Of a stretch of DNA of 64,000 nt, positions 12,666 to 19,110 are shown piece by piece. A program made the position numbers and the translations under genes. A model generated the notes under the pieces. The model had not been told where the DNA came from. It worked only from the letters and a program-made list of their open reading frames with translations, and did no database searches. This stretch comes from Natronomonas salina (GTDB lineage Archaea > Halobacteriota > Halobacteria > Halobacteriales > Haloarculaceae), in assembly GCF_013391105.1 (NCBI RefSeq), contig NZ_CP058335.1, positions 3,472,001 through 3,536,000 on the forward strand. Direction: 5' to 3'. How positions within the stretch are numbered: the first letter of the stretch is position 1; every line of letters starts with the position of its first letter.

Positions 12666-13598
12666 ATGGCCGGAACCTCCGACAGCGCCGACGCTGTCGA
12701 CGTCCGCCAGGCCCGCCTCGACGACCGCGAGGCCGTCGTCGCGTTCACCAGCGACACCTGGCCGCAACTCGGCGGCGACTACATCCCGCGGGTCTTCGAC
12801 GACTGGGTCGAATCCGACGGGCCGACACAGCGGACCTTCGTCGCCACGCTCGACGGCGACCCGGTCGGCATCTGCCAGGGCGCGCTGCTCTCCGACGACG
12901 AGGGGTGGGCACAGGGGATGCGCGTCCACCCGGAATACCGCGGCGCCGACGTCAGCGAGGCGCTCAGCGAGGCGGTCTTCGCGTGGGCGGCCGACCAGGG
13001 CGCGACCGTCTGCCGAAACATGGTGTTCTCGTGGAACGCCGCGGGCCTGGGACAGTCCCGCGCGGTCGGGTTCGAACCGCTCTGTGAGTTCCGCTGGGTC
13101 GAACCCGAGCCGGACCCGGCGGCCGCCCCCGACCTCGACGTCCGCTCCGACCCCGCGCTCGCCTGGCGCGTCTTCCACGGCAGCGACGCCTACCGCGAAC
13201 TCGTCGGCCTTGGACTCGACCTCGAGGAGTCGTGGGCGCTCGCCGAGGTGACCAGGGAGCGACTCGAGGCGGCCGAGGAGACCCTCGTCGTCGCGGACGA
13301 CGACCGGGCCCGCGGGATGACCTACCGGACGCGGACGTTCGAACGCGAGGTCGACGACGAGGACGGCGGCGGTGAGACAGAGACGTGGGCCGAGTACGGC
13401 GTCGGCGCGTGGGACGACCACGAGACGCTGCGCTCGCTGGCCGCGGCGGTCGCCCGCGACGCCGCCGAGCAGGGCGCCGAGCAGTGCCGGATGGTCGTCC
13501 CCGAGACGCCGCGGCACGTCTCCGACGCCGCCTACGCCCGCGTCGACGTCTCCGAAGAGCCAGATTTCGTCCTCGAGCGGGACCTGACCCGCTACTGA
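12666..13598 (+). CDS. GNAT-family N-acetyltransferase (two-domain)
   Basis: 310 residues. The N-terminal half is a GNAT domain: [16 protein letters not shown], then the acetyl-CoA-binding region [16 protein letters not shown] and an Asn-containing segment [21 protein letters not shown]. The second half (from about 150) is a degenerate repeat of the fold that also ends in a strand-helix-strand pattern, as in double-GNAT proteins. The substrate is unknown. It begins 6 nt after gatD and is probably in the same transcript. Confidence 0.8.
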
Positions 13599-13656: not shown

Positions 13657-13941
13657 CTACCGGGCGCCGCCGCTGACCGGCGGGAACAGCGCCAGCTCGT
13701 CGCCGTCCTCGAGGACGGTGTCGAACCCGTCGTCCTTCACGAACGGGTTGTGGTCGTTCCGGAGGACGCGGATGTGGTCGCGGAGGTCGCCCTCGTCGTC
13801 CAGCACCTCGTCTTCGAGTTCGGGGTGGGCCTCCAGGAGCTGCTCGAAGGCGTCGCCGAACGTGTCGCCGGCCTCGGCGGGGACGTTGACGCGCTTGGCG
13901 CCGACCGTCTCCGCGAGGTTGGCGAACAGTCGCCACTGCAT
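13657..13941 (-). CDS. samp1: Ubiquitin-like small archaeal modifier, SAMP1-like, with GGAR end
   Basis: 94 residues with a beta-grasp MoaD/ThiS-type fold: [16 protein letters not shown] at the start, HIRVLRND in the centre and [11 protein letters not shown] near the end. It closely follows the layout of Haloferax SAMP1, which is conjugated to lysines through its terminal diglycine. Here the diglycine is followed by Ala-Arg and then TAG, so the Gly-Gly is not terminal. Activation by the E1-like UbaA would first need removal of two residues, for instance by a JAMM protease. It is single, divergent from tgtA and convergent with the GNAT gene. Confidence 0.85.
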
Positions 13942-14055: not shown

Positions 14056-15588
14056 ATGCGCGACATCTTCGAGCTCCGGGACGTCGACGGCGCCGGCCGC
14101 ATCGGCGACCTCGAGGTCCCCCGCGCGGGCGTCACCGTCGAGACGCCGGCGCTGCTGCCGGTCATCAACCCCCACATCCGGACGGTGGAGCCGGCGACCC
14201 TGGAGGCGGACTTCGGCGCCCGGATCCTCATCACCAACGGCTACATCTTCTTCAAGAGCGACGACTACCGCGAGCGCGCCCTCGAGGAGGGCCTCCACGA
14301 CCTGCTGGACTTCTCGGGCGCCATCATGACCGACTCCGGCTCCTTCCAGCTCTCGGAGTACGGCGAGATCACCGTGACGAACGAGGAGATCCTCCGGTTC
14401 CAGCACGAGATCGGCTCGGACATCGGCACGCCCATCGACGTCCCGACGCCGTCGGACGTCGGCCGCGAGCGGGCCGAGACCGAACTCGAGACCACCCAGG
14501 GGCGCCTCGAGGCCGCCGAGTCCGTCGACGTCGGCGAGATGCTCGTCAACGCGCCCGTCCAGGGGTCGACCTACGCCGACCTCCGGGAGTCGGCCGCCGA
14601 GCACGCCTACGGGACGAGCCTCGACGTCTTCCCGGTCGGCGCGGTCGTCCCGCTGATGAACGACTACCGGTACGCCGAGATGGTCGACGTGGTCATGGCC
14701 GCCAAGCGCGGGCTGGGCGCCGACGCCCCGGTCCACCTCTTCGGCGCCGGCCACCCCATGATGTTCGCCCTCGCGGTCGCCGCCGGCTGCGACCTCTTCG
14801 ACTCCGCCGCCTACGCCCTGTACGCCCGCGACGACCGCTACCTCACCGTCTCCGGCACCGAGCACCTCGAGGACCTCGACTACCTCCCCTGCTCGTGTCC
14901 GATCTGCGCCGAGCACTCGGCGACGGACCTCCGGGCGGCCGGCGAGGACCGCCGGGAGGAGCTGCTCGCCCGCCACAACCTCCACGTCAGCTATCAGGAG
15001 CTCCGGACCGTCAAGCAGGCCATCCGGAAGGGCAACCTCCTCGAACTCGTCGAGCGCCGCGCGCGCGGCCACCCGGCGATGCTCGACGGCTACCGGGCGC
15101 TGCTGGACCACGCCGACCAACTCGAGCGGTCCGACCCCGTCTCGAAGGGGTCGTTCTTCTACCTCTCGAACGAGTCGGCACGCCGCCCCGAGATCCGCCG
15201 GCACCACGACCGCCTCGGGCGCCTCGCCGTCGACGGCGACCGCGTTTTGCTGTCGGAGGGCGGCAACAACAGCCGGTACGACGAGACCTGGCGGCTCCGG
15301 CCGCCGTTCGGCCCCGTCCCGCCGGCGCTGTCGGACAGCTACCCCCTGACCGCGGAACTGCCGGAGCGGCCGGACCGCGACGCCCGCGAGGCGGCCGCCG
15401 ACGGCGTCCGCCGGCTGGTCGAGGCCAACCCCGACGTCGAGTTCAGCGTCGCCCACTGGCGGTGGCCCGACCGCACGCTCGCGGCGCTGCCCGAGTCGGT
15501 CGAGACGCTCGAACTCGGCGAGGACAGCGCGCCGCCGCGCGACGAACCGAAGGAGGATTACCCGGCGGACGACGAGCAGGACGCATGA
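14056..15588 (+). CDS. tgtA: Archaeal tRNA-guanine(15) transglycosylase
   Basis: 510 residues. Swaps guanine-15 of tRNA for preQ0 in archaeosine synthesis. Diagnostic motifs: [25 protein letters not shown] (nucleophile Asp), [18 protein letters not shown] and the zinc site [10 protein letters not shown] with a downstream His. The PUA-like C-terminal domain is largely missing; the PUA part lies in the partner ArcS. ATG 14056 was chosen because it begins the conserved MRDIFELRD. It overlaps arcS by ATGA, so the two are translationally coupled. Confidence 0.95.
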
Positions 15589-18546: not shown

Positions 18547-18828
18547 ATGGAGCTGGAACTGCGGTTCTTCGCGACGTTCCGGGAGGCCGTCGGCCAGAAG
18601 GTCGTCGACCGCGAGTTCGACGAGGGCGCGACCGTCGGCGACGTCCTCGCGGCCATCGAGGCGGAGTACCCGGAGCTGGTCGGCGAGATCCTCGACCACG
18701 ACGGCGACATCCGGCCGCAGCTGTCCATCCTGAAGAACGGCCGCGAGGTGGTCCACATCGACGGCACCGAGACCGCCCTGGCGGACGGCGACCGGCTGAG
18801 CGTCTTCCCGCCGGTCGCGGGTGGGTAG
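18547..18828 (+). CDS. Ubiquitin-like MoaD/SAMP-family protein with terminal Gly-Gly
   Basis: 93 residues: MELELRFFATFREAVGQK, central LSILKNGREVVHIDG and the end LSVFPPVAGG. The diglycine is the last coded pair, as required for adenylation by UbaA. It could act as a SAMP modifier, a sulfur carrier for molybdopterin (MoaD), or both, as in Haloferax. An in-frame ATG at 18520, overlapping the upstream stop, would add nine residues (MSGAGQEGT) and may be the coupled start; the conserved domain begins at 18547. The next gene starts directly after the TAG. Confidence 0.88.
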   Translation: MELELRFFATFREAVGQKVVDREFDEGATVGDVLAAIEAEYPELVGEILDHDGDIRPQLSILKNGREVVHIDGTETALADGDRLSVFPPVAGG

Positions 18829-19110
18829 ATGCGGGAGACCCGGCAGTTCCGCGGCATCTCGCGGCGGCTGGCCGTCCAGTACCTCGAGAACCTCGGCGGC
18901 GAGCGCGCCGGGTCGGACGACGTCGCCGACGGGACCGACGAGTACCGCGTCGAGGGCGACGGGTGGACCGCGACGCTCTCCCAGGAGACGGTCCCCGTCG
19001 CCGGGTCCATCGAGCTCACGGAGGTGACCGTCGACTTCGAGGGGGACGGCGAGACGCTGGAACCGCTCGTCGAGGCCTTCGCCCGGAAGGCGATGCGGGC
19101 GGGTGGCTGA
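18829..19110 (+). CDS. Hypothetical protein in the MoaD/SAMP operon
   Basis: 93 residues, soluble, alpha/beta: MRETRQFRGISRRLAVQYLENLGG, then WTATLSQETVPVAGSIELTEV, VTVDFEGDGETLEPLVEAFARKAMRAGG. It starts on the base after the stop of the ubiquitin-like gene, so translation is coupled. The length and helix-then-sheet pattern are reminiscent of the small domain fused or linked to MoaD-related proteins in some prokaryotes, but this is a guess. It also ends in Gly-Gly (RAGG). Confidence 0.75.
   Translation: MRETRQFRGISRRLAVQYLENLGGERAGSDDVADGTDEYRVEGDGWTATLSQETVPVAGSIELTEVTVDFEGDGETLEPLVEAFARKAMRAGG

Follow-up and report, generated by a model that had tools for sequence, protein, structure and literature searches.

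Eukaryotic ubiquitin is made as precursors whose residues after the diglycine are removed before activation, and in the QbsE/QbsD system of Pseudomonas the residues behind the diglycine of a sulfur carrier are taken off by a JAMM protease. By the chemistry established for MoeB/UbaA, an untrimmed form of such a protein should not be adenylatable by the E1 enzyme. The SAMP1 of Haloferax volcanii (HVO_2619) ends at the diglycine. PMC4443979 describes HvJAMM1 as severing linear SAMP1 fusions precisely behind VSGG. It also describes a SAMP1 whose C-terminus was artificially blocked (SAMP1-MoaE) and which, in H. volcanii, allows DMSO respiration only in the presence of jamm1. Processing of archaeal ubiquitin-like protein (Ubl) precursors is described for Caldiarchaeum subterraneum, whose SAMP precursors are cleaved by CsJAMM, in PMC6043591, which also states the precursor form of eukaryotic ubiquitin. 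Archaeal Ubl precursors and their trimming by JAMM proteases are, in short, already known.

A SAMP1 gene with codons behind the diglycine

The window analyzed here is the whole 64,000-nucleotide stretch of the Natronomonas salina genome, which is a single contig of 3.75 Mb. The earlier note had described positions 13657-13941 as a SAMP1-like modifier with a GGAR end, and this is borne out by direct reading of the minus strand, which holds 94 codons and a TAG stop, ending in FPPVSGGAR*. The relevant features of the window are:

12666-13598, plus strand: GNAT acetyltransferase gene, convergent (ORF neighbour)
13657-13659, minus strand: TAG stop codon (read directly)
13660-13665, minus strand: tail codons GCC CGG (Ala-Arg) behind Gly-Gly (read directly)
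13666-13941, minus strand: predicted mature part of a SAMP1/MoaD-type Ubl, 92 aa, ending VSGG (NF041918, 121 bits; Pfam ThiS; PDB 3po0/2l83/4hro)
14056-15588, plus strand: TGT-family gene (Pfam tRNA-ribosyltransferase), divergent, upstream neighbour
18547-18828, plus strand: second Ubl, ending exactly VAGG, stop at 18826-18828, start chosen at MELEL (NF041918, 108.5 bits)

The match to the NCBIfam SAMP1 equivalog NF041918 (121.3 bits against a curated cut-off of 60 bits) covers the entire profile (1-91 of 91) and residues 1-92 of the protein; hence, the family model does not extend to A93 and R94. A Pfam ThiS match, sequence-search matches to the solved SAMP1 structures (2l83, 3po0 and 4hro; E ~1e-21) and the VSGG motif identify the protein as a beta-grasp Ubl of the ThiS/MoaD type. 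The diglycine is followed by extra residues, as in JAMM-processed precursors, and does not form the end of the gene product, as it would in a canonical SAMP1. The comparison with orthologues and proteases presented below indicates that the gene probably encodes a pro-SAMP1, which would be trimmed to GG by JAMM1 before activation by UbaA.

The SAMP1 gene and the convergent GNAT gene, which ends at 13598, are separated by 58 bases and the tail codons do not overlap it; this rules out, for the window, a tail imposed by such an overlap. The 3' ends of SAMP1 and the convergent gene look adjacent or overlapping in some relatives (loci L009 and L177-L182). Table 1 of PMC2948915 includes a neighbourhood of Ubl-family and GNAT genes (arCOG00535/arCOG04721) for Halobacteria.

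Orthologues in Natronomonas

The SAMP1 protein was found in all 20 Natronomonas genomes searched, with a tail in 16 of them and a stop right at GG in the remaining four. The tails comprise AR (three genomes: G000, G005 and G019), GR and RR (two each), and SRK, SSVAQRPV, SGVSQTLV, DGGVAQRPV, RRR, CGAG, CEAG, CRR and KVQ. VSGG is invariant in 20/20 orthologues, with or without a tail, and conservation is good throughout the body of the protein. To judge from the three genomes that share it, the 16 with some tail and the invariant motif, the GGAR end is more than chance.

These orthologues bear on two doubts raised in the earlier note. The first, a sequencing error that affects the stop codon (an assembly error there may be added), has a practically negligible probability: it is refuted by independent tails in 16/20 Natronomonas genomes and in further genera. 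The second, that every orthologue might carry the extension, did not hold, given the four that end in GG. A tailed SAMP1 might also never be activated, having only a non-covalent role or decaying while other Ubls took over. The genome does possess other MoaD-type Ubls, including the second copy in the window that ends in GG; however, we regard this as very improbable because a non-activated protein is not expected to keep VSGG invariant in 20/20 orthologues along with a well-conserved body.

Processing machinery in the genome

Two genes elsewhere on the contig could supply the enzymes for the processing and activation of a pro-SAMP1:

C1:1940160-1940555: desampylase (JAMM1, HvJAMM1 type; NF041370, 165.2 bits against a cut-off of 130 bits; HSHP...S..D motif intact)
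C1:1947575-1948285: E1-like ThiF/MoeB protein, the only one in the genome (281.7 bits)

Thus, the cognate JAMM desampylase that accompanies JAMM-processed Ubl precursors is present (NF041370, 165.2 bits), and the E1-like gene lies ~7 kb from it. Under the favored explanation, the ribosome would make ...VSGG-AR, a pro-SAMP1; JAMM1, the HvJAMM1 orthologue, would cut behind the second glycine; the exposed glycine carboxylate would be adenylated by the single E1-like enzyme (UbaA); and the activated SAMP1 would serve sulfur transfer to MoaE (molybdopterin) and/or protein sampylation. The observed elements of this scheme are the tail, its recurrence, the invariant VSGG, the JAMM1 and E1 genes themselves and the confinement of tails to genomes that carry JAMM1 (see below). 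From these we infer that JAMM1 trims the natural tail and that SAMP1 is inactive as long as the tail is on.

The locus shares with H. volcanii the family (NF041918; PDB 3po0/2l83/4hro), the VSGG end and the presence of the desampylase family in the genome, but the published SAMP1 fusion is artificial, whereas the Natronomonas tail is encoded by the gene itself. With the SAMP precursors/CsJAMM and CsUb-pre/CsRpn11 of Caldiarchaeum (PMC6043591) it shares the residues behind GG and JAMM trimming, the latter being predicted for the haloarchaeon. That lineage is different, and one of its SAMPs looks adjacent to CsJAMM by locus tags (Csub_C0702/C0703), whereas here JAMM1 is far from SAMP1; moreover, unlike in Caldiarchaeum, the haloarchaeal tails are gained and lost from species to species. 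In eukaryotic ubiquitin precursors, too, residues follow GG, but the proteases differ and the protein here is not ubiquitin but a beta-grasp protein of the MoaD/SAMP type; QbsE/QbsD differs in belonging to a bacterial siderophore pathway.

In the genomes surveyed, tails occur only with a desampylase

Among 80 named loci, tails were found in Halorubrum, Halalkalicoccus, Halorientalis marina and one MAG (a 47-residue tail), with most others ending in GG. In Halorubrum, where 44 SAMP1 genes were read from 50 genomes searched, 33 are tailed and 11 end in GG; the tails are mostly of four residues, of the type [SAGT][VAG]GR. The genus of Halalkalicoccus paucihalophilus has six tailed genes out of seven, the other ending in GG; five of its tails are SAPR, SGQR, SGRQ, SDRR and SGRR, and the sixth lacks that stop and runs on for >100 residues.

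We then surveyed 391 genomes of the order that were at least 90% complete, using the SAMP1 model, the desampylase family NF041370, a DNA pattern for ...FPPV(S)GG followed by a stop, and the same pattern without the stop. The pattern with the stop was found in 280/391 genomes and that without it in 345/391. Reading of the 65 genomes that differ showed 64 to be tailed and one (G117) not to be SAMP1. Of the 46 seen by neither pattern, six are tailed (G071, G229, G244, G299, G325 and G422), 35 end in GG (34 of them read and one assigned by the stop position in the model match) and five are without a usable SAMP1. In total, 385 genomes were classified, 70 of them as tailed, showing that a terminal GG is no fixed feature of the SAMP1 orthologous group. 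Four genomes (G092, G117, G187 and G194) were matched neither by the SAMP1 model A1 nor, strongly, by the desampylase family.

A strong match to NF041370 was recovered in 286/391 genomes, and 17 genomes with weak matches alone were counted as JAMM1-negative. Tails are present in 70/284 JAMM1-positive versus 0/101 JAMM1-negative classified genomes (Fisher 6e-11). At the level of the 85 genera, 22 have a tail and 19 are wholly JAMM1-negative, with zero overlap (p 0.002); when JAMM1 was permuted among genera as blocks, the probability of zero tails was 0.00025. The contrast is also seen within genera: in g51, G258 is tailed and JAMM1-positive and G217 ends in GG and is JAMM1-negative; in g80, G395 is tailed and JAMM1-positive and four genomes ending in GG are JAMM1-negative. 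Since 214/284 JAMM1-positive genomes are tailless, JAMM1 is at most permissive for the tail. The earlier note's proposal of a precursor needing processing is well supported by these comparisons, i.e., an invariant VSGG with a variable tail, tails only alongside the desampylase, and published JAMM cleavage after GG. A second, distant JAMM-domain protein accompanies the one desampylase in the window's genome and could be taken to favor trimming by another protease, with the presence of JAMM1 coincidental; however, this is quite improbable given the absence of tails from all 101 genomes that are negative in the protease survey, which was conducted with the desampylase family NF041370.

To assess the phylogenetic weight of this association, we computed a FastTree phylogeny of 176 SAMP1 rows, 73 tailed and 40 from JAMM1-negative genomes. 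It requires 24 or more changes of the tail state and 13 or more of JAMM1, and none of the 176 rows is both tailed and JAMM1-negative. A strict pair test on supported branches, with ~2 pairs in the predicted direction and 0 against (p 0.5), is devoid of statistical power. When tail evolution blind to JAMM1 was simulated with fitted rates, zero was reached in 0/6033 accepted runs, in a sample enriched in tailed genomes; once the tail frequency was fixed at 18-25%, the probability of zero tails in JAMM1-negative rows was 0.005-0.025 for the fitted total rate and spanned 0.0002-0.11 when the assumed rates were varied over a fourfold range. As judged from these genome comparisons, the association between tail and JAMM1 is likely, though not proven.

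Length and composition of the tails

The frequent changes of state, together with widely differing tail sequences and the many tailless JAMM1-positive genomes, also accord with neutral drift, in which stop shifts adding a few residues would be harmless wherever JAMM1 serves desampylation; the residues would be trimmed anyway and the tail would have no role. Such drift would still involve trimming and is compatible with the favored explanation; we consider it a serious possibility at slightly under even chances. Its predictions were compared with 224 distinct SAMP1 genes, 88 tailed and 136 ending in GG. The tails have a median length of 4, with 85/88 at 12 residues or fewer and 84/88 at 10 or fewer, far shorter than plain stop loss predicts, for only 15/136 GG-enders would meet another in-frame stop within ten codons. 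Likewise, outside Halorubrum, Arg ends 28/54 tails versus 24/134 in a translated non-coding control (p 9e-6), and the first residue is S/A/G/C/T in 38/54 versus 49/134 (p 4e-5); these p values are too small because the rows are related within a genus and not independent. Plain stop loss into the 3' DNA as the sole cause of the tails is ruled out by their length. For CsRpn11, a related enzyme of Caldiarchaeum, bulky residues right behind the cut (Cys79Glu, Gly80Trp) blocked processing and Cys79Gly sped it up (PMC6043591), a preference that fits the small first tail residues, with the caveat that CsRpn11 is not JAMM1.

In the 29 four-residue tails of Halorubrum, a clean codon-position signature of protein-level selection was not found, which again favors drift: codon 2 varies at positions 1-2 and never at 3, and only the last Arg (CGA/CGG in 28/29) looks kept. 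Ordinary protein-level purifying selection on these residues is unsupported, the codon-position pattern being inconsistent over the four codons and the DNA behind the stop being itself conserved. In most species of the Halorubrum loci L147-L176, conserved DNA ATCGGTCGTTTCAAACG lies just behind the SAMP1 stop.

Other ubiquitin-like proteins of the genome

The second Ubl of the window, which we take to be SAMP3-like, was said in the earlier note to end exactly in GG, and VAGG is indeed read at 18547-18828. NF041918 is unable to separate SAMP1 from this copy, since the latter matches too (108.5 bits). The same search of the genome recovered two further MoaD-type Ubls, both tailed: C1:12645-12914 (VSGG-STEVDR) and C1:3001236-3001481 (MEGG-CTETHTSGE), bringing the tailed ones to three of four; some SAMP3-type copies in relatives are tailed as well. 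The suggestion that the two Ubls of the window are under different control thus has the GG end of the second in its favor, but the additional tailed Ubls and tailed SAMP3-type relatives against it; it is only consistent with the data.

The three tailed Ubls also touch on whether the tail acts as a regulatory lock, keeping SAMP1 inactive until JAMM1 is available and thereby coupling sulfur transfer and sampylation to the level of the desampylase. The dependence of blocked SAMP1-MoaE on jamm1 for DMSO respiration (PMC4443979) and the three tailed Ubls out of four point in this direction; however, tails are gained and lost freely and the present data show no sign of a regulated JAMM1, making a lock rather unlikely.

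Directly behind the second Ubl (its TAG stop, then ATG), window positions 18829-19110 on the plus strand encode a 93-aa protein with AGG at its end. Going by the description in PMC2948915, it looks like the TBP-like GG protein (arCOG06308), which is placed there beside a MoaD-like Ubl. A Natronomonas MAG (G019; L023:1234-1956, minus strand) has the SAMP3-like Ubl and the downstream GG protein joined in one reading frame (...FPPVAGG-ARTAETREFRGISKRL...KAMRAGG*); this is a linear Ubl fusion like those of ubiquitin-fusion genes, though in a MAG it may also result from misassembly. The SAMP3-like Ubl of two g71 genomes (L257 and L258; g71 is a genus) terminates in GG-A, at the sequence GCATGA, and its stop codon may overlap the start of the next gene; the GG-A tail may come from translational coupling.

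Implications

What appears to be undescribed is the recurrence of short, commonly Arg-ended SAMP1 tails in haloarchaea, limited to desampylase-bearing genomes. No prior description of such tails was found by title or abstract in the open-licence literature, where absence is no proof, and they are not mentioned in the available parts of PMC4443979, PMC6043591, PMC2948915, PMC3403918 and PMC8305020. The tail may function in its own right, either as a lock or by offering a preferred cut site, or may be neutral baggage tolerated thanks to JAMM1. A bolder proposal, which we consider possible but doubtful, is that haloarchaea repeatedly made SAMP1 into a short-tailed, commonly Arg-ended proprotein tolerated only with a desampylase; JAMM1 would then have an obligatory second job as maturase, its level gating molybdenum-cofactor sulfur transfer and sampylation.

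If trimming holds true, precursor processing, a hallmark of eukaryotic ubiquitin, would be widespread among haloarchaea, some of them culturable and related to the best genetic model. Tagging or modelling the SAMP1 of tailed species as a GG-ended protein would then be wrong, and deletion of JAMM1 in such species should act like deletion of SAMP1. Moreover, the many gains and losses would provide natural pairs with and without tails for asking why Ubl genes carry them.
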